DNA from: Candidatus Acidiferrales bacterium
GTDB lineage: Bacteria > Acidobacteriota > Terriglobia > Acidiferrales > UBA7541
Assembly (NCBI GenBank): GCA_035934015.1
Contig: DASYYH010000020.1
Span: 1 to 64,000, forward strand
DNA: 64,000 bases
Direction of reading: 5' to 3'
In this document: positions 16,659 through 26,252 of the stretch, one piece after another
How the letters are laid out: each line of letters begins with the position of its first letter
Numbering within the stretch: the stretch's first letter is position 1
Notes under the pieces: generated by a model
Databases searched by the model: none
Seen by the model: the letters and a program-made list of their open reading frames with translations, nothing else
Told to the model about the DNA's origin: nothing
Position numbers and translations under genes: made by a program

Positions 16659-16730
16659 GAAACTATCATGCACTAAAATTCGCGTGGCTGCTCTGGAATG
16701 CCTCGCCGAGCGTTGATACAATTCGCAGAT

Positions 16731-17942
16731 ATGGCAAACTGGCGGCAGATTCAAGGACGCATCCGGCGGGCGCGCACGAGCGGAGACCCCGTCGCCAAGC
16801 TCACCGAACTATTTCAAAAGACGCGCGACGCGATGGTGGCATTCGAGGTCGGCTCGCTCGAAGAGAAGGCCGGCCACAACGATGAAGCAATTCGCTGGTT
16901 CAAAGCCGCTGCGGAACGCTTCCGGCGCGCGGATTGGAAAAAGAAAGCTGCGGACGCACTGACGCGTCTGGGCGCGGCAGTGCCCGAAGGACTGTCCGCG
17001 CGCGCGGCGGTTTCCACCGAGGCGACTGAACACGCGGCAAACGAAGGCGGAGAAAGCCTCGTTGAGGAAGAGGACGTGCAAAATTCGGAAATGATGGGAA
17101 ATTTGGAAACGGAGAAACTAGGCGTGAATCTTGAGCCGGAAGTGATTCACGAAGATCCGCAAGATCAGATCTTCAACCGCGAGCAGCCGCCGAGCGCCGT
17201 AGCGCGCGCGGCAAGCCAACGGCAGCCCGCCACCGAGCGCCGGGGACGGAGGCGCGGGCGGCGCGGAGGCCGAAGGCACAAGCGCCACGGAGAGGCTGGC
17301 AAGCCGGGAATGGAGCGTCCGACCGTGACGCCCGCAAGACCACCGGTGGAGCGAACATCCCGCTCCGGCATGGACGAGCGCGTGTATGCGCAGTCGGGCC
17401 GTCAGTCGCCGGCGGCACAGATTTCCGCATCTGCCCCTGTAGAAACTCCAGAGAGCGCGGCGACGCCCGCTTCGCGGTTTGTGCCGGAACCGAGCGGACC
17501 ATTCGTGGAACGCACTACGTTCATCCGCGCGGGCGATCCGGCGCTTGCTTCGCGCTTCGCGCAACTGGAATCGCTTTTGCGGCGGTTGATTTCCGCGCCG
17601 CTGCATCGCATCGATGAGATCGCTGAAGCGCCCGCCGGACCCGGCGTCTTTCTTCTTTCGGATTCTGATTTGATGACCAATTACTACGTTGAGGCATGCC
17701 AGACGCTGCGCATCGGGACGAGCCAGCTGGCGCGCGCAGGACGCGCCGGGCGAGGGGCGCGCGCGGAAGGGAAAGCTTCCCTTCGGGCGCAACTTGCTGA
17801 ACATCTGGAAATCAACGACACGCAAGTGAACGACTACCTGAAGAAGCACTGTGTGGTCCGCTGGCTGCAGCTCGATGAAGACGCACCGCACGTGGCGCAT
17901 TTTGCCATCGCCGTGCTGCGGCCGGCGCTGAACACGCAATGA
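16731..17942 (+). CDS. hypothetical protein: TPR-like N terminus, Arg-rich linker, GIY-YIG-like C terminus
   Basis: This 403-residue protein belongs to no family I can name with certainty. Residues 1-82 form helical pairs resembling one or two TPR units (KAGHNDEAIRWFKAAAERF). Residues 85-290 look disordered and include a strongly basic patch, RRGRRRGRRGGRRHKR. The last 100 residues show a GIY-YIG-like pattern: PGVFLLSDSD, YYVEACQTLR, LRAQLAEHL, and HFAIAVLRPALN. The glycine of YIG and the usual catalytic glutamate are missing, so it is probably a non-catalytic nucleic-acid-binding fold. TACAAT (16717-16722) lies 8 nt before the ATG. Confidence 0.75.
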   Translation: MANWRQIQGRIRRARTSGDPVAKLTELFQKTRDAMVAFEVGSLEEKAGHNDEAIRWFKAAAERFRRADWKKKAADALTRLGAAVPEGLSARAAVSTEATEHAANEGGESLVEEEDVQNSEMMGNLETEKLGVNLEPEVIHEDPQDQIFNREQPPSAVARAASQRQPATERRGRRRGRRGGRRHKRHGEAGKPGMERPTVTPARPPVERTSRSGMDERVYAQSGRQSPAAQISASAPVETPESAATPASRFVPEPSGPFVERTTFIRAGDPALASRFAQLESLLRRLISAPLHRIDEIAEAPAGPGVFLLSDSDLMTNYYVEACQTLRIGTSQLARAGRAGRGARAEGKASLRAQLAEHLEINDTQVNDYLKKHCVVRWLQLDEDAPHVAHFAIAVLRPALNTQ

Positions 17943-18071: not shown

Positions 18072-21000
18072 TTAGAACGTCAAATGCAGAGCCATGGAAA
18101 TAAATCGTGGGCTTCCGAGCGCGTTTTGAATGAATCCTTCCCCCGGAGGCACCATGTTATTCCCAATCATCCCGGAGCTGCCAACTCCTGCCGTCGCTCC
18201 ATACCACTGACAAACAAAACCATTTGAAATCAAGAAGTTGTTGGGGCTTGACTGGATGTTCGGCCCAAAACAACCGTCGAGGCTGAAGTTGTTCGAAGGT
18301 GCGTCAAAGCTGGGATGATTGAAGAGATTGAAAAACTGCGCGTCGTAACGCAGGCGGAAGCGTTCATTGATCTTGATGTTCTTGAACACGCCAAAATCAA
18401 AGCGGGTCTGAAACGGTCCGCGGAAGGGGTTGCGAGGTGCATTCCCCGTTGCGAAACCGCTTTCAGAGTAATCGCACGCCGCAGTTGGATTCGCGGGCTC
18501 ATCCGTGGTGGGACCGCACGGAGGAACGCCGTTCGTTCCCGGAGCATTCAGGTTTGCACCAAACGCCGCCCCGTTAATGACCGGATTATTGGGATTCACG
18601 CCCGTCGTGCCCTGGAGCTGGACGCTGTGAACACTGCCGTTGATGATCGTAAGGAGCGGATTGGTGATGAAATTGTCTCCGGCGCCAAAATATTGGGACG
18701 CCACGTCGCCAGAGAAGTCATAGATGCTGTACGGATTGCCGCTCTCGGCCACGGTGACGCCACTAATTCCCCAGTCGTTGAGCGCCTTCGCCGCAAAACC
18801 TTCTGACTTGATCAAATTGGGCACGTTGTAAACGTAATTGATGGTCAAAACATGGGTACGGTCATAACCTGCGCTGCCGTAACCAGATCGGGGGTCCAGA
18901 GGGTTATTGCCGTTATAGAAAAGTCCTTCCGCGAGTCCGCTGCCCTCGTCGAGGGCGTGAGACCAGGTGTACGAAATATTGAGTTGCAATCCATGGCTCA
19001 TGCGCTTGGTCATATTGAGTTGCAGAGCGTTGTAATTGGAAACCCCCTCCGCTTCCCAATAATCAGAGTTGGGGTTGTAGCCGATGTAGGGCACGCGAAG
19101 GGCTGTGTTGCCGTCGGCTCCCGTGAATTCGCCGATGGTGGTCATCACCTGCTCGGTCTGCAATGCGCCAAATCCTCCGTCGGCATCGGTGGCCTGAAAT
19201 CCATACGAGTAGGTCTGGCCATTGATCGGTTTCCCGGGAATAGCAATCCCCGGCTGATTGAACGGAACCGGGATCAGTTCATGTTGGCCGTGATTCCCAA
19301 CATAACCAATGTCAAAAAGGAGCGTGTTGTACGGCTGCCACTGCACGTCGAGCGTCCAATTCTCGGAGTAGGGCAACGTATTTTTCGGATCATAGCCGCC
19401 AAAAAGGAATGCAAAGAGCGGCGTGCTGGTTGGCGTGCAAGTGGGCGTCACAGGCTCCGGGCAACCGCTCAACCCGGATTGATTATGAACGAGAGATGCG
19501 ACGGAATTGGGACCCGTCAGTGTATTGGGCGGAGGGGGCAAAGGTGACGTGCCGAATGGATTGTTCTGCAAGCATTGCACGCCGGTACAGCTGTTATGGA
19601 CCGGAACCGTAAAGGGTTCTTCTGTGGTCACTCCGAACGGGCCGCTGATGCCCAGGCCAGCGCTCGGGGAAAACTCCGTAAAGAACTCTCCGCGGTCGGC
19701 GTATATACCGTAGCCGGCGCGAACGGTCACGTTCTTTACAAAGGATGGGCTCCAGGCAAGCCCCAGCCGCGGCTCAAACATCCATTGACGCCCGGTCAGA
19801 GTGGAATTATTGGCGCAGTTGCTCGACTTCGTGGCGCAGAACTCCTTGTTATTTCCCGCGATCACCAAGCCAATGTTGTTGACCGTGTCGGAAGCCAGAT
19901 CATAGGAATAGGAGCTGGGATAGAAGTTCGTGAGCAGTCCGTTCTTTTCATAAAGCGGGCCATCCCAGTCCCAACGCAGGCCAAGATCCACGGTCAGGTT
20001 TGACTTTAGCTTCCAATGATCCTGAGCGAAAAGCCCTGCTTGCCGCGAGCGGAAATAGCGGTTCGTTTCGCCGTTTAGAATCGTGCCTCCGCTCCTGCCA
20101 CCCAGATTGCCCGTAAGGAAATTCGCGAAGTTATTGAAAGTGAATGTGGCAACCTGATTTTCGCGATTGATGACATTGAGCTGGCCGTAATCGAAGATGC
20201 CACCGAAAGACAAATCGTGGTGGCCGTGGACCCAATCGTAGTTTGAGGCACCTTCAAATTGATTCTGAAAAACACCGGCATTTGCAAAATTGTTCGCCGG
20301 ACCAATACGCAAGCCGTCGAATGTTCCTGAACCCGCGTTGCTAATCGTGATTCCGGGGAAGAAATTGCTGCCGAGGAGGTTGATTCCCGCCGTTGTGGGC
20401 GAAAGCTGCTGGCTCGTACCTGCATCCGCGATTTCGCGAATGAAACCGAGGCGCTGCTCCCAGGTCGAATTCGCATTCACGACCGTTGTGTTATCCAAGG
20501 ACAGGACCTGGCTGCCGGCATGAAGAGTTTGCGGAAATCCAAGGACCTGGCTTACAGCAAAGGGACTCGTGGAAGGGTTCCGTTGATAATAATACTTGCC
20601 AGACATGCGATCCCTGGCGCTGAATTCGTAATCGATATTGGCATTGATCTGGTCTGCATGGAATGTACTTGAAGGACCCTGCTCCACGGCGTTGCCGCCA
20701 AGCTGACTGATCTCACTCACATTCGTGATGTTCTGCGAAGGAATGAGGTACTGCCCGCTTGGAGTCTTTGCCTGCATGACGGCCAAGGCGACATTGTCGA
20801 TGTTCCCTTGGGGAACGCCGGCCAAAGTTGCGAGTGTTGCGGCGCTGCGGTCATTTGTCAGACCGCTAGGTACATTGACGATTGCTGTCGCGCCATTGGA
20901 TGCGTCCGTTACTCTCACACCTTGATACGATCCAAAGAAAAATAGCTTGTCGCGAATAATGGGGCCGCCAAGCGTGCCTCCGAACGTGTTTCTGTGAAGC

Positions 21001-21989
21001 GCAGGGCGCGGCAGCAGCGGTTCTCCGGTGTTCGGATCGACTCCCGCAGCGTTAAAGAAGAAAGGCGCCGCATTCCAACCAGTGGTCTGATGATATTCGT
21101 AGAGCTGTCCGTGCAAATCATTGGTTCCGGACTTCGTGGTCAACTCGACGTGCGCGCCGCTGTTGGCTCCCTGCGAAGCGTCGTACATAGAGGTATTCAC
21201 ATGGAGTTCCTCGATCGTCTCCTGTGGCGGCGTGGGGAGGCCCTCGCCGATCGCGTCGTAAACGGAAGTGTTCGTCTGGATTTGACCGCCCGCCAGGAAC
21301 TGCTCATTGGTGTTCAGGACGTAACGCGCCTCGCCAACCTGACTCGAAGACTGCCCATTGAACAAATTGTTCGCGTTGACGGAATTAAAGCTGAAGCTGT
21401 TGCTGGTGTCTCGCTGGCCATTCGCGAAAATATCCTGGTTGCCCAGTCCCGTGTTGGTTCCCGAGCCGCCGAGCAGATCGGCATTGACGCCGGGGGCCAA
21501 AATAGCGAGCTGAGTAAAACTGCCAGTGCCGAGAGGAATCGTCTGAATCACCTCAGGCCCGAGCGTGTAGCCGTTGGTCGTGTCCGTCTGGTTCATCAGC
21601 GGCGTTGCGCTCACGGTGATCGTTGTTGTTACTTCGCCGGCCTGCAATGTGACGTTCACAGTCGAGGCCAAATTTCCGCGAACCAAAATGTTCGAGTGGA
21701 CCTCGGTCTTGAAGCCTTGCTTGGAAATCGTGACGGTGTACGTGCCAATGGGAAGATCGACGATGTTGTAGGAGCCGTCATTTTGCGTGTTGGCGCTGAC
21801 GGTTAGCCCTGTGTCGACGTTCTTCGCTTGAACCTGCGCTTTGCCAACGACCGCGCCGGAGGTGTCCGTGACTGTGCCGTTGATGGAGCCGAGCGTTTGC
21901 TGTGCGCGAAGCGTCAGCGGGACGAGAGCGCTGAGGCATAGCGATACGCACAAGAACACCAAACCACGCAGAAAATTATTCAGCTTCAT
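18072..21989 (-). CDS. TonB-dependent receptor with carboxypeptidase-regulatory domain (Oar-like)
   Basis: This 1305-residue outer-membrane receptor has a signal peptide at 1-29, cut after LTLRAQ. A carboxypeptidase-regulatory-like beta-sandwich spans about 33-115 (GSINGTVTDTSGAVV, IGTYTVTISKQGF). A plug domain spans roughly 125-300 and includes VELTTKSGTNDLHGQLYEY. A large barrel ends in SMALHLTF with a C-terminal Phe, as outer-membrane proteins require for assembly. This architecture is expanded in Acidobacteriota and linked to uptake of oligosaccharides or other polymers; the substrate is not readable here. No SusD-like partner is adjacent. The start is supported by GGGAG. Confidence 0.93.
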   Translation of the reverse strand: MKLNNFLRGLVFLCVSLCLSALVPLTLRAQQTLGSINGTVTDTSGAVVGKAQVQAKNVDTGLTVSANTQNDGSYNIVDLPIGTYTVTISKQGFKTEVHSNILVRGNLASTVNVTLQAGEVTTTITVSATPLMNQTDTTNGYTLGPEVIQTIPLGTGSFTQLAILAPGVNADLLGGSGTNTGLGNQDIFANGQRDTSNSFSFNSVNANNLFNGQSSSQVGEARYVLNTNEQFLAGGQIQTNTSVYDAIGEGLPTPPQETIEELHVNTSMYDASQGANSGAHVELTTKSGTNDLHGQLYEYHQTTGWNAAPFFFNAAGVDPNTGEPLLPRPALHRNTFGGTLGGPIIRDKLFFFGSYQGVRVTDASNGATAIVNVPSGLTNDRSAATLATLAGVPQGNIDNVALAVMQAKTPSGQYLIPSQNITNVSEISQLGGNAVEQGPSSTFHADQINANIDYEFSARDRMSGKYYYQRNPSTSPFAVSQVLGFPQTLHAGSQVLSLDNTTVVNANSTWEQRLGFIREIADAGTSQQLSPTTAGINLLGSNFFPGITISNAGSGTFDGLRIGPANNFANAGVFQNQFEGASNYDWVHGHHDLSFGGIFDYGQLNVINRENQVATFTFNNFANFLTGNLGGRSGGTILNGETNRYFRSRQAGLFAQDHWKLKSNLTVDLGLRWDWDGPLYEKNGLLTNFYPSSYSYDLASDTVNNIGLVIAGNNKEFCATKSSNCANNSTLTGRQWMFEPRLGLAWSPSFVKNVTVRAGYGIYADRGEFFTEFSPSAGLGISGPFGVTTEEPFTVPVHNSCTGVQCLQNNPFGTSPLPPPPNTLTGPNSVASLVHNQSGLSGCPEPVTPTCTPTSTPLFAFLFGGYDPKNTLPYSENWTLDVQWQPYNTLLFDIGYVGNHGQHELIPVPFNQPGIAIPGKPINGQTYSYGFQATDADGGFGALQTEQVMTTIGEFTGADGNTALRVPYIGYNPNSDYWEAEGVSNYNALQLNMTKRMSHGLQLNISYTWSHALDEGSGLAEGLFYNGNNPLDPRSGYGSAGYDRTHVLTINYVYNVPNLIKSEGFAAKALNDWGISGVTVAESGNPYSIYDFSGDVASQYFGAGDNFITNPLLTIINGSVHSVQLQGTTGVNPNNPVINGAAFGANLNAPGTNGVPPCGPTTDEPANPTAACDYSESGFATGNAPRNPFRGPFQTRFDFGVFKNIKINERFRLRYDAQFFNLFNHPSFDAPSNNFSLDGCFGPNIQSSPNNFLISNGFVCQWYGATAGVGSSGMIGNNMVPPGEGFIQNALGSPRFISMALHLTF

Positions 21990-22616
21990 AAGTTTTATCT
22001 CCCACCACTTTAAGATAGTGACTGCTTCTACTACCAGTGCGATGGAGCGTCAAGACGACCTGTGAATATCTCTGGGACAAACACCCTCCAAGGCAGGTCC
22101 AAAGCCTCATCGAATAGAGACGAAGAATCTTGCGGACCTGACATTGCAGCTTCATATCTAGCGTGTTACGAGATAATGAAAGGCCAAGGGAAAGCTAACG
22201 GAAACAGGATCCTGATTACGCATGATGAGCTGAAATTGAGATGTGATTCAGCGGCAGAAGCGATTCAGCCACCTGGACTCGCACGACCACACCTTTTGGG
22301 AGAAGGAGTAGACCGGATTGAGATAGCAGGCAAAACTGACTTTGCCCAGCTTCCTAGGGCTGTTTATTCAGGCTTTCGACCGGCTGGGGCTTCGGATTAG
22401 CGTCCCACTGGCTGCCCCAGAGCGCCACTTAACCTCGAAAACAACCGTTTGGCTGTTTGTGCTGGACGAGCACCGGAAAAGCCTGCAAACTGTGGTGCGG
22501 TAAAGATTTAGGAGCTTTCTGTCCAGGGGATACGGGGATGGATGGCTTCGCTGGGATAATAAAAATACAGGGCAATCAAGAGTCTTCTTAATTCTGAGGA
22601 AAGCGAGGTTCGAGCC
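21990..22616. other. 627-bp intergenic region with an inverted repeat; no convincing gene
   Basis: This gap separates the divergent TonB receptor and radical SAM genes. An open frame of 112 codons (22062-22400, plus) has no family resemblance or ribosome site and is not called. CTGGGGC (22384-22390) and GCCCCAG (22414-22420) form a perfect 7-bp stem, and GTGCT/AGCAC pair around 22457-22472. An extended -10 box TGGGATAAT ends at 22560, about 56 nt before the radical SAM start, and may drive that gene. I matched no known riboswitch class. Confidence 0.4.
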
Positions 22617-24806
22617 ATGTCTCTTACGGTTCGCAACCGCATCTGGAAATCAATCGATTGGGCAGCATGCAAGGCTGCCGGCGCGACGTTCAACACGATT
22701 CAGTTCTTCAACAAGTACAATCCGAATCCTTCCTTCACGCCGAAGTGGTCGGACAAACCCATCCTGAAGTCATGGGAAAAGAGCAAGCCGACGCTCGGCT
22801 GGCCGCGGACGACCGATTCCCTCTGCCCAGGCTGTGTGAAGGAAGCACGCGAAGCCATCATCAATGGCAAAAAGGACTGGACGGATCTCGTCCACGAGAA
22901 GGTCGGCGAGATCAAGGCGCAAATCATCGAGCGCGATGGCCAGGTCTGGATGGTGAAAGAGTGCCCCCTCCACGGCAAGTTCGAAGACCTGATGGCCGTC
23001 GACGCGAAATTCCTCGAATGGATCGAGAAGAATTTCCCCGGCCGCGACATTCCGGCGCACAACGATGAGGATCTGCACAAGCATGGTTCCAGCACGGTTC
23101 GTTACGGCCGCGGCGCAGTCTTGACCGTGGACCTCACCAACCGGTGCAACATGATGTGCGATCCCTGCTTCATGGACGCCAACCAAGTTGGCTATGTGCA
23201 CGAGTTGAGCTGGGAGGAAGTGCAGGAAATTCTGGACAATGCGCTCAAAATCAAGCCGCGCCGGCAGATGTCCGTGCAGTTCTCCGGCGGCGAGCCGACG
23301 ATGAGCCCCTATTTTATCGATGCAGTGCGCTACGCCCGCAAGGTCGGATACAACAGCGTGCAGGCGGCGACGAACGGTATCGAGTTCGCCAAGAGCAAGG
23401 AGTTCTCCAAGAAGGCCTTTGAGGCCGGCCTCCGCTATGCCTACCTGCAATTCGACGGCATCGGCAACGACGCGAACAGCCACCGGCAGGTCGGCAACTT
23501 GTTCGATGTGAAGCTGCGCGCCATCGAGAACATGCACGAAGCGGGCATTGAAATCGTTCTCGTGACGACCATCGTCAACAACGTGAACAACGACCAGGTG
23601 GGACCGATCGTTAAGTTCGCGATGGAGAATCCGAAGAAAATCGCGTTCGTATCGTTCCAGCCGGTTTCGTTCACGGGCCGCGACGAAGACATCACGCCAG
23701 AACGGCGCATGCGCCAGCGCTACACACTTTCGCATCTGGCCAAGGACGTTAGTCATCAAGTGGGGCAAATCGAGCCGACGCGCGACTGGTTTCCGCTGTC
23801 GTTCATCGCGCCGTTTTCAAACTTCGCGGATCACGTTCATGGCCCGGATGCCATGTGGGGTTCACTTTCCTGCGGATGCCATCCGAACTGTGGCGTGGGC
23901 ACGGCACTGATGGTTCACAAGGAAACCAAGGAGTGGGCGCCGATTTCCCGCTTCTTGAACGCCACGCAACTGGCAAAAGATGTGAACGCCATCACCGATG
24001 CGGCTCGCGGCAAGAAGTTTTCTGCGTTCATGCTCGCGCTGGCGATGCTCAGGAACTACAGCCCGTTCCAGGCGCCGCCGAACCTGCGCATCAAGGACAT
24101 CCTGAAGAAGTTCGACAAGACGTGGGCCGTTTCGGAGAACTCGGACAAAAAGTACGGGCGCACCAATCCAAACCGCACCTACGAAGACGCCATGAAGCGC
24201 CGCAGCGAAGATCCGTGGAACATGCTGTTTATCGCCGGCATGTGGTTCCAGGATCTTTTCAACTACGATTTCCGGCGCACAGAGATGTGCATCATCCCGT
24301 ACGCGACGCAGCAGGGCGAAATTTCTTTCTGCGCGTACAACACGGGAATTGGCTGGCGCAAGATCATCGAGAACATGCACAAGAACGCGACCGTGGCGCA
24401 ATGGTACAAGGAACACGGTCGGCACGAAATCTACGCCAAGGGCAAGAAGGTGAACCTCGAGCATTACGAGCATTCGCTCAAAGTCGACTCCGCTGACGCC
24501 GCGCGCGTTCGCCATCTCGAGCACGACATTCCTCTTACCGCAGCCGAGGAAGACCGCGCACGCCGCCGCAAGGCCATGGAAGAGGCGGCCAAGGTTCGCG
24601 CGATCTACGAGGAATTGGTCCTCAAGAAGCCTTCGACGACCGAGGGCGTCGTGCAAATTGGCACGCTTTCGGCGATCAAGGAGGCTGTGCCTGGCGGCAC
24701 CAAGCCTGTGCAGATCACGGGCGCAAACGGGAACGGCAACGGGGCGAACGGCCACGACGCTGCGAAACGCGAAGTCACCGAGGCGGAAACCGTCGCAGGC
24801 GACTAG
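22617..24806 (+). CDS. radical SAM protein resembling tetraether/membrane-spanning lipid synthase (Tes/Mss-like)
   Basis: This 729-residue radical SAM enzyme has the cluster motif Cys177-x3-Cys181-x2-Cys184 (NRCNMMCDPCF) and SGGEPT at 223-228. The N-terminal part carries CPGC (70-73) and KECPLHGKF around Cys116, the metal-site layout seen in tetraether lipid synthases and their relatives. More cysteines lie at 419, 421 and 425 (SCGCHPNCG) and at 558 and 572, consistent with auxiliary iron sites. Such enzymes join two lipid tails carbon to carbon, giving membrane-spanning lipids. Acidobacteria are known to make iso-diabolic acid and related lipids, so this role is plausible here. It is inferred, not proven. 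The Lys/Ala-rich last 110 residues look like a flexible extension. It is a single-gene unit with its own terminator. Confidence 0.78.
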   Translation: MSLTVRNRIWKSIDWAACKAAGATFNTIQFFNKYNPNPSFTPKWSDKPILKSWEKSKPTLGWPRTTDSLCPGCVKEAREAIINGKKDWTDLVHEKVGEIKAQIIERDGQVWMVKECPLHGKFEDLMAVDAKFLEWIEKNFPGRDIPAHNDEDLHKHGSSTVRYGRGAVLTVDLTNRCNMMCDPCFMDANQVGYVHELSWEEVQEILDNALKIKPRRQMSVQFSGGEPTMSPYFIDAVRYARKVGYNSVQAATNGIEFAKSKEFSKKAFEAGLRYAYLQFDGIGNDANSHRQVGNLFDVKLRAIENMHEAGIEIVLVTTIVNNVNNDQVGPIVKFAMENPKKIAFVSFQPVSFTGRDEDITPERRMRQRYTLSHLAKDVSHQVGQIEPTRDWFPLSFIAPFSNFADHVHGPDAMWGSLSCGCHPNCGVGTALMVHKETKEWAPISRFLNATQLAKDVNAITDAARGKKFSAFMLALAMLRNYSPFQAPPNLRIKDILKKFDKTWAVSENSDKKYGRTNPNRTYEDAMKRRSEDPWNMLFIAGMWFQDLFNYDFRRTEMCIIPYATQQGEISFCAYNTGIGWRKIIENMHKNATVAQWYKEHGRHEIYAKGKKVNLEHYEHSLKVDSADAARVRHLEHDIPLTAAEEDRARRRKAMEEAAKVRAIYEELVLKKPSTTEGVVQIGTLSAIKEAVPGGTKPVQITGANGNGNGANGHDAAKREVTEAETVAGD

Positions 24807-24836: not shown

Positions 24837-24869
24837 AAAACGGCTCCGGTTCCTGCTGGAGCCGTTTTT
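24837..24869 (+). terminator. rho-independent terminator of the radical SAM gene
   Basis: CGGCTCC (24841-24847) and GGAGCCG (24858-24864) form a perfect stem flanked by AAAA and TTTTT. Confidence 0.88.
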
Positions 24870-24972: not shown

Positions 24973-25164
24973 ATGTCACTGGCATGTGAAATTTGCGGCA
25001 AGAAGCCGAGCTACGGAAATGTTGTGAGCCATGCGAACAACCTGCGGAGGCGCCGATGGAATCCGAATCTGCGCCGCGTGAAGGCGCTCGTCGGCGGTGC
25101 GCGCAAACACATTCGCGTGTGCACAGCGTGTATCCGAGCCGGGCGCGTCAAGAAAGCTGCCTGA
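24973..25164 (+). CDS. rpmB: 50S ribosomal protein L28
   Basis: L28 (63 residues) is a structural protein of the large ribosomal subunit. [21 protein letters not shown] and the [12 protein letters not shown] core are diagnostic. Two cysteine pairs, CEIC and CTAC, show the zinc-binding (C+) form. TTGGAG precedes the ATG. A TATAGT-like -10 box lies near 24932. It is followed after 38 bp by the PpiC-type lipoprotein gene. Confidence 0.97.
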
Positions 25165-25202
25165 ACCTGTCCTCCCATTTCGCCAATCGAAGGAGTTCCT
25201 CC

Positions 25203-26252
25203 GTGTTGAAACGAACAGCTCTTTTCGCCGCCTTCCTGGCGTGCGCTCTGACGATTTCGTGCAGGAGCCAGCAGGCTCCGAACCAGAACGTGTGGGCTAC
25301 GGTGAACGGAGCGGAGATCAACCGCGCGGAGGTCGACAAATACTACCGCAGCAGAGTGCAGGCGCAGGGCGCCGTGCCGTCGCACGACGAGGCGCTGTCG
25401 CTCAAGCTGAGCATTCTCGATCAGTTGATTGACAACGAGCTTTTGTATCAACGCGCGAAAACGCTGAATTTGATCGCGACGGACAGTGAAGTCCAGGACA
25501 AGTTCAATCAGTCAAAGGCACCCTTCACCGAGGATGAATTTCAAAGTAAGCTCAAGGAAAGCAGCCTGACAGTGGACGACCTGAAGAACGAAATTCGGCG
25601 CGAGCTTTCGATTCAAAAGCTGATGAACCGGGAAGTGGTGGCGAAGATTACCGTCTCTGACGCGGACGTGGCCGATTTTTACGCGAAAAACCAAGCGCAA
25701 TTTAACGTGGCTGAGCCGCAGTACCACGTCGCGCAGATCGTCGTCACTCCACACCCCGACCCGGGAATTCACAATCGTAAAAACGACAACGCCACAACTC
25801 CCGAGCAGGCGAAGCGTAAAGTGACGATGATCGAACAGCAGCTCGGTGCCGGGGCGGATTTCGCCCAGGAAGCGATGGACTACTCCGAAGATACCAACTC
25901 CTCAAACGGCGGCGATTTGGGCTTTATTCCGCAATCGTCGCTCAATCAGACCGATCCTGCCCTCAAGACCGCTGTGCTGGCTTTGCAGCCCGGACAAGTG
26001 AGCAAGCCGATCGAGCTCAAGGACGGCTATCACATCATCAAACTGATTGCGCGCGAGCCGGCGGGGCAGCGTTTGCTTTCCGATCCGCAGGTGCAGCAAT
26101 CGATCCGCACGACGCTGCAAAACAGGCGAGAACAATTGCTCCGTGAAGCCTATGTGAGCTCGGCGCGCGACCAGGCGCATGTGGTCAATTATCTCGCCAA
26201 GGAAGTTCTCGAATCGGCGGGCAAGCTTCCGAGCGACGACGCGGGCAACTAG
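25203..26252 (+). CDS. SurA/PpiC-type peptidyl-prolyl isomerase lipoprotein
   Basis: This 349-residue periplasmic chaperone and prolyl isomerase has a lipoprotein signal peptide: MLKRTALFAAFLACALTISC gives the lipidated Cys20. A SurA-type N-terminal chaperone domain (about 27-175) precedes a parvulin domain (about 180-295) with YHVAQIVVTP, SSNGGDLGFIPQ and LKDGYHIIKL. It probably helps fold outer-membrane proteins such as the large TonB receptors. The start is GTG at 25203, preceded by AAGGAG and matching the signal peptide; the longer open frame upstream overlaps rpmB and is not coding. Confidence 0.93.
   Translation: MLKRTALFAAFLACALTISCRSQQAPNQNVWATVNGAEINRAEVDKYYRSRVQAQGAVPSHDEALSLKLSILDQLIDNELLYQRAKTLNLIATDSEVQDKFNQSKAPFTEDEFQSKLKESSLTVDDLKNEIRRELSIQKLMNREVVAKITVSDADVADFYAKNQAQFNVAEPQYHVAQIVVTPHPDPGIHNRKNDNATTPEQAKRKVTMIEQQLGAGADFAQEAMDYSEDTNSSNGGDLGFIPQSSLNQTDPALKTAVLALQPGQVSKPIELKDGYHIIKLIAREPAGQRLLSDPQVQQSIRTTLQNRREQLLREAYVSSARDQAHVVNYLAKEVLESAGKLPSDDAGN

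Follow-up and report, generated by a model that had tools for sequence, protein, structure and literature searches.

The window, the whole stretch of 64,000 nucleotides of a Candidatus Acidiferrales genome analysed here, carries at 22617..24806 (+ strand) the gene of a radical SAM enzyme from a Tes-related acidobacterial clade that we call type B, assigned from Pfam, NCBIfam and PDB matches, predicted fold and tree. We propose, with a probability of roughly 60%, that type B is the radical SAM enzyme with which this lineage couples acyl chains tail to tail into iso-diabolic acid, probably on ester lipids. Widely used palaeothermometers for soils and lakes are based on acidobacterial membrane-spanning lipids and, to our knowledge, the enzyme joining the tails of these lipids in Acidobacteriota is so far unproven. 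A nearly universal and well conserved candidate, distinct from the rare true Tes, makes this tail-joining enzyme testable. Besides, type B is in itself a natural experiment that can tell if the chemistry needs the N-terminal cluster of Tes.

Earlier work has already suggested that acidobacterial homologues as a whole have a role in spanning lipids. Bacterial Tes homologues were proposed as the makers of bacterial spanning lipids (Zeng et al., PMC8941075), and two Tes homologues of S. usitatus, a microbe that makes brGDGTs, were proposed for the same purpose (Halamka et al., PMC10087280). An earlier note on this DNA described the bacterial enzymes as only partly characterised. The present analysis adds the division of the homologues into two kinds, the consistent loss of one cluster in one of them and its near-universal presence in the class.

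The gene and its surroundings

The open reading frame (22617-24806, + strand) is intact: it opens with an ATG and codes for 729 amino acids. Pfam detected in the protein a Radical_SAM domain (2.3e-18, residues 173-335) and Zn_ribbon_HMPTM (PF23545, 5.4e-15, residues 63-127), a name derived from the old annotation of the M. jannaschii enzyme. These matches, together with those to NCBIfam models and the residues kept in about 164 orthologues, indicate that the frame did not arise by chance. The gene had been described as monocistronic, with its own terminator and a large leader, and all of this held. There is no operon partner, the leader has 627 bp, counted from the coding start of the divergent upstream gene at 21989, and a strong intrinsic terminator follows at 24837..24868 (+ strand; perfect 11-bp stem plus T-run, detected core 24847-24864). 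Directly beyond it lie rpmB, coding for ribosomal protein L28 (24973-25164), and then a gene for a SurA-like PPIase lipoprotein. The listed open reading frame at 24993-26252 has its start placed too early and overlaps rpmB.

We found no lipid genes among the neighbours of the Tes-like gene, and no conserved downstream neighbours among the orthologue loci, where the rpmB, PPIase and carboxylase genes of the window do not appear. The sole recurrent upstream neighbour codes for a conserved protein without assignment; the window copy is located at 16698-17939 and has no Pfam match. In most near relatives its gene precedes the Tes-like gene by 235-390 bp. In the window and two other loci (L011 and L016) the distance exceeds 4 kb, and in the window an outer-membrane receptor gene (18072-21989) separates the two.

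The leader contains three direct repeats CC[AG][CT]T (22405..22449, + strand) that are 20 bp apart and lie about 210 bp before the ATG. The same triple repeat, with a spacing of about 20 bp and located some 190-265 bp before the start, is common to Acidiferrales relatives. It was found in 25 of 125 upstream regions (a count in which the window locus figures three times), against 0.04% of shuffles, and its strict form occurs a single time in the whole window genome, at the Tes-like gene. The triple repeat is possibly a gene-specific operator. No known RNA element was detected in the leader or the gene at E<=1, and no sigma-70 consensus promoter was found.

Relation to Tes, TrsS and Mss

Among the NCBIfam models the best match was the tetraether lipid synthase Tes (NF045702), with 326.3 bits (E=2.8e-97) against a curated cut-off of 450, so that the protein falls outside the Tes equivalog. 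The model for TrsS (NF045646) gave 224.7 bits, with its best stretch at residues 98-384, and its cut-off of 490 was not reached over the full length either. By sequence, the sole close solved structures were 7tol and 7tom, both of GDGT-MAS (E=1.8e-62). The genome of T. maritima, the source of Mss, had no match to the Tes profile at 1e-35 or to the TrsS profile at 1e-25. As far as these profile searches can tell, the window protein therefore groups with Tes and not with the Mss that has been proven.

The earlier note had read the protein as Tes/Mss-like. The first half of this reading was borne out by the profile, the PDB sequence match, the fold, the catalytic residues and the tree, with the qualification that the protein scores below the Tes equivalog cut-off, forms its own clade and lacks one of the four metal sites of the solved enzyme, a loss that the note had overlooked. 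For membership of the Mss family we found no support. The protein is a real and conserved member of the Tes superfamily outside the Tes equivalog, and judging from the residues that it retains it is probably active as an enzyme.

Metal sites and active-site residues

The structure of the M. jannaschii enzyme provides the reference (Lloyd et al., PMC9433317). It has a rubredoxin-type Fe site (C9, C12, C33, H36), an N-terminal [4Fe-4S] cluster (C73, C77, C80 and a His), the radical SAM cluster and a C-terminal [4Fe-4S] cluster with the labile Met439, with Tyr459 near the substrate; an intermediate forms a bond between a substrate carbon and a cluster sulphur (PMC9433317). Residue equivalences were obtained by aligning the type B rows with 7tol, and this alignment also served for the check, proposed in the earlier note, on whether the cysteines gather around iron. 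The cysteines pointed out in the earlier note are all present: C70 and C73 of the CPGC motif, C116 (with H119) of KECPLHG, C177, C181 and C184, C419, C421 and C425, C558 and C572. They are kept at about 98% or more in the ~164 orthologues, which range from about 50 to 95% identity.

The first four of these ligands form a rubredoxin-type metal site, C70-x2-C73-x42-C116-x2-H119 (22824..22973, + strand; PF23545 and site alignment), corresponding to C9, C12, C33 and H36 with a loop some 22 residues longer in the window protein. The radical SAM motif CxxxCxxC (C177, C181, C184; Pfam and site alignment) is encoded at 23145..23168 (+ strand). Further on, in the motif CGCHPNC (23871..23891, + strand; site alignment), C425 aligns with C338, a probable ligand of the C-terminal [4Fe-4S] cluster, and C419 and C421 are extra cysteines, nearly invariant in type B. 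The stretch at 24240..24332 (+ strand; site alignment, PMC9433317) completes the set, with M542 equivalent to the labile Met439, C558 to C455, Y562 to Tyr459 and C572 to C470. C338, C455 and C470 are probably the C-terminal cluster ligands, as read from the conserved cysteines; the text of the paper names only Met439. Each of the rubredoxin-type ligands, the radical SAM cysteines, C425, C558, C572, M542 and Y562 is found in about 99% of the type B rows.

The N-terminal auxiliary [4Fe-4S] site of archaeal Tes (C73, C77, C80, H83) is missing from the corresponding region of the window protein (23067..23105, + strand; site alignment). All type B proteins (~164 orthologues) have lost its ligands, and 19 of the 19 acidobacterial true Tes homologues examined, which we call type A, keep them. 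One seeming type B exception with this cluster (L003_B) proved to be a fragment of a true Tes under a wrong label and was set aside. Arg210, which binds 5'-dAH, is also replaced in type B. The retained active-site residues all point to a Tes-like way of working, and two defining features of Tes are lacking, a score above the cut-off and the N-terminal cluster.

Predicted structure

The AlphaFold2 model computed on the orthologue alignment had a mean pLDDT of 89.7 and a pTM of 0.88. When it was compared with the PDB by Foldseek, 7tom and 7tol came first (E ~1e-36; TM 0.87 and 0.89 by target length), and the next match by E-value was MoaA, with a TM of 0.53. A structure prediction had been suggested as a check on the Tes-like reading, and as regards the fold it returned that of Tes, with a TM of 0.89 over 7tol. 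Since nearly the whole of 7tol is covered by the match, the predicted fold probably includes the lipid-binding cap.

Two parts of the model lie at the ends of the chain. An N-terminal helix, residues 3-32 (22623..22712, + strand; predicted structure and hydrophobic moment), has amphipathic character in the set of 155 orthologues (medians of 0.38 for the hydrophobic moment and 0.01 for the shuffle p), but not significantly so in the window protein itself (p 0.16). Contact of this helix with the membrane is possible. The C-terminal extension, residues ~590-729 (24384..24803, + strand; predicted structure and alignment), corresponds to the roughly 110 residues that the earlier note could not assign, and it has no family assignment here either. 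Beyond the YNT motif the tail has a median of about 115 residues in type B compared to 29 in true Tes. It is predicted to contain helices at 593-600, 625-629 and 642-667 and to be disordered from residue 694, and its conservation holds to about residue 620 and then decays.

Distribution and phylogeny

The best 80 relatives from named genomes are acidobacterial MAGs, in agreement with the link to Acidobacteriota made at the outset, and the nearest of them is a Candidatus Acidiferrales with 95% identity. They include records named Sulfopaludibacter (which we take to belong to subdivision 3), Pyrinomonadaceae, Blastocatellia and Chloracidobacterium. An orthologue 80% identical was also found under a Betaproteobacteria label (CAJCHZ010000004.1, locus L030), probably a mislabelled acidobacterial MAG.

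The window genome (3.37 Mb, 98.6% complete) has one copy of the gene, the only other match being a weak radical SAM protein. Within its family all of the 29 high-quality genomes have a strong match, counted from the match list; at the search threshold every genome matches through other radical SAM proteins. At the level of the class, 119 of 121 genomes have a match to the Tes profile at E<=1e-35, and 13 of the 121 encode a protein that scores above the Tes cut-off. Of the 297 genomes sampled from the phylum, 168 have a match at E<=1e-20 and 129 have none. Some genomes carry two or three members of the Tes superfamily. Plasmid-borne relatives amounted to two weak halobacterial matches.

The two kinds separate cleanly, type A being above the cut-off and mostly 530-560 residues long and type B mostly 620-760. 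In a maximum-likelihood tree of 89 rows all type B sequences are found on one side of a branch with SH-aLRT 100, beside the type A rows; a tree had been proposed as a check, and its Tes part places the window protein in a fully supported clade adjoining true Tes. The stem of the type B clade is long (2.42 changes per column), and long branches may have influenced which type A rows it joins, according to a program warning. The gene tree does not simply track class labels. A diverged second type B copy, 51-58% identical, exists in some families (for example f21 and f29: L169-L173, L150 and L151), often beside the main copy in the same genome, and would reflect an ancient duplication or a transfer. 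A third, Tes/TrsS-like kind was seen in two genomes (L183 and L184, in G038 and G008), with about 480 residues and scores below both the TrsS and the Tes cut-offs; it keeps the rubredoxin-type and N-terminal cluster cysteines and is devoid of the C-terminal cluster ligands.

Proposed function

Iso-diabolic acid has been found in subdivisions 1, 3, 4 and 6 and makes up 20-40% of the fatty acids in subdivisions 1 and 3 (PMC13274423). This spread agrees with the orthologues in Sulfopaludibacter, Pyrinomonadaceae, Blastocatellia and Chloracidobacterium, and the genomes of the class presumably include isolates of subdivision 1. A product of such abundance calls for a nearly universal coupling enzyme, and true Tes is too rare to be that enzyme. 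The brGDGT producer Edaphobacter aggregans has one Tes homologue, with 32% identity, and those of Solibacter and Koribacter have 40-42% (PMC8941075). From these identities and the near universality of type B in the class, we infer that the E. aggregans homologue would fit type B and those of Solibacter and Koribacter type A. The tail-coupling reading is thus suggested by the match to Tes in sequence and fold, the C-terminal cluster residues kept and the position of the clade beside Tes, and also by the matches in 119 of 121 class genomes, the single copy in the window genome, the spread of iso-diabolic acid and the E. aggregans homologue.

In the reaction that we propose, SAM reduced on the cluster of C177, C181 and C184 would give a 5'-deoxyadenosyl radical, which would abstract hydrogen from an iso-branched acyl tail at its terminal methyl group. 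A first tail would be held on the C-terminal [4Fe-4S] cluster (C425, C558, C572 and the labile M542) and the radical of a second tail would attack it there, making an sp3-sp3 carbon bond. With two iso-C15 tails, this coupling would yield 13,16-dimethyl octacosanedioic (iso-diabolic) acid. Electrons would probably pass through the rubredoxin-type site, with the N-terminal auxiliary cluster of archaeal Tes unused.

As for the substrate, no DUF2229 protein was detected in the window genome, with the matches of T. maritima as control. DUF2229 is a part of PlsA/Ger. The window genome has only a single-domain BcrAD_BadFG protein of 322 residues. The window genome is without a PlsA/Ger-type ether-forming protein, so the product would probably be ester-bound rather than a full brGDGT. 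This same absence, and the small number of reported brGDGT producers compared to a type B nearly universal in the class, make it rather unlikely that type B is the actual brGDGT synthase, coupling tails of ether lipids or of lipids that already span in part, with ethers supplied by enzymes other than PlsA/Ger, such as ElbD or Agps. Such a role would be consistent with a fold and reactive cluster like those of Tes, with the ester and ether substrates that Tes and Mss are said to accept (PMC13274423) and with the brGDGTs of S. usitatus (PMC10087280).

Several features speak against tail coupling itself: the protein lacks a metal site that the model enzyme has, Arg210 is replaced and no lipid genes adjoin the gene. 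The lost cluster and the changed Arg210, together with the long stem of the clade and the new CxCxxxC and tail, might be expected if a Tes-fold enzyme had turned to another radical reaction on membrane lipids or a hydrophobic substrate (e.g. methylation, cross-linking at another position or oxidation). We consider this improbable, as the complete C-terminal cluster with its labile Met and the equivalent of Tyr459 are kept at 99%, and the earlier assignment of the M. jannaschii enzyme as a methylase was uncorroborated (PMC9433317). Finally, iso-diabolic acid could come from a distinct Mss homologue, leaving type B accessory or unrelated, in line with the Mss homologues reported in Acidobacteria (PMC11868695) and with a T. 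maritima Mss outside the Tes-like family by profile, but a near-universal type B with an intact catalytic set renders this very improbable.

Tail coupling by type B may be extended to a wider proposal, for which we see the chances as evenly balanced. Type B would be the general iso-diabolic acid synthase of Acidobacteriota, a Tes derivative forming the sp3-sp3 carbon bond on ester phospholipids that dispenses with the N-terminal [4Fe-4S] cluster, draws electrons through the rubredoxin-type site and possibly a new site linked to CxCxxxC, and is controlled through a gene-specific three-repeat operator.

Comparison with known systems

The radical SAM (seleno)protein TrsS shares with the window protein the N-terminal and radical SAM parts, but not the C-terminal cluster part. 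The Mss of Thermotoga maritima, demonstrated by expressing it in E. coli (PMC11604127), shares the proposed reaction, in which acyl chains are coupled tail to tail, and has a reported Tes-like architecture (PMC13274423). The likeness to archaeal Tes/GDGT-MAS (MJ0619; PDB 7tol, 7tom) extends to the fold, the rubredoxin-type, radical SAM and C-terminal [4Fe-4S] ligands, the labile Met and the Tyr. However, the identity is about 29%, the N-terminal [4Fe-4S] site is missing and Arg210 is replaced, and the window protein has a longer Fe loop, an N-terminal helix, a C-terminal tail and the extra CxCxxxC. A further close system is the bacterial type A Tes (e.g. L120, L134), of the same phylum and a neighbouring lineage, with the core shared with type B and probably the same as the 40-42% homologues of Koribacter and Solibacter (PMC8941075). 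Type A differs from type B in having 530-560 residues, in keeping the N-terminal cluster (19/19) and in being rare in the class (13/121).
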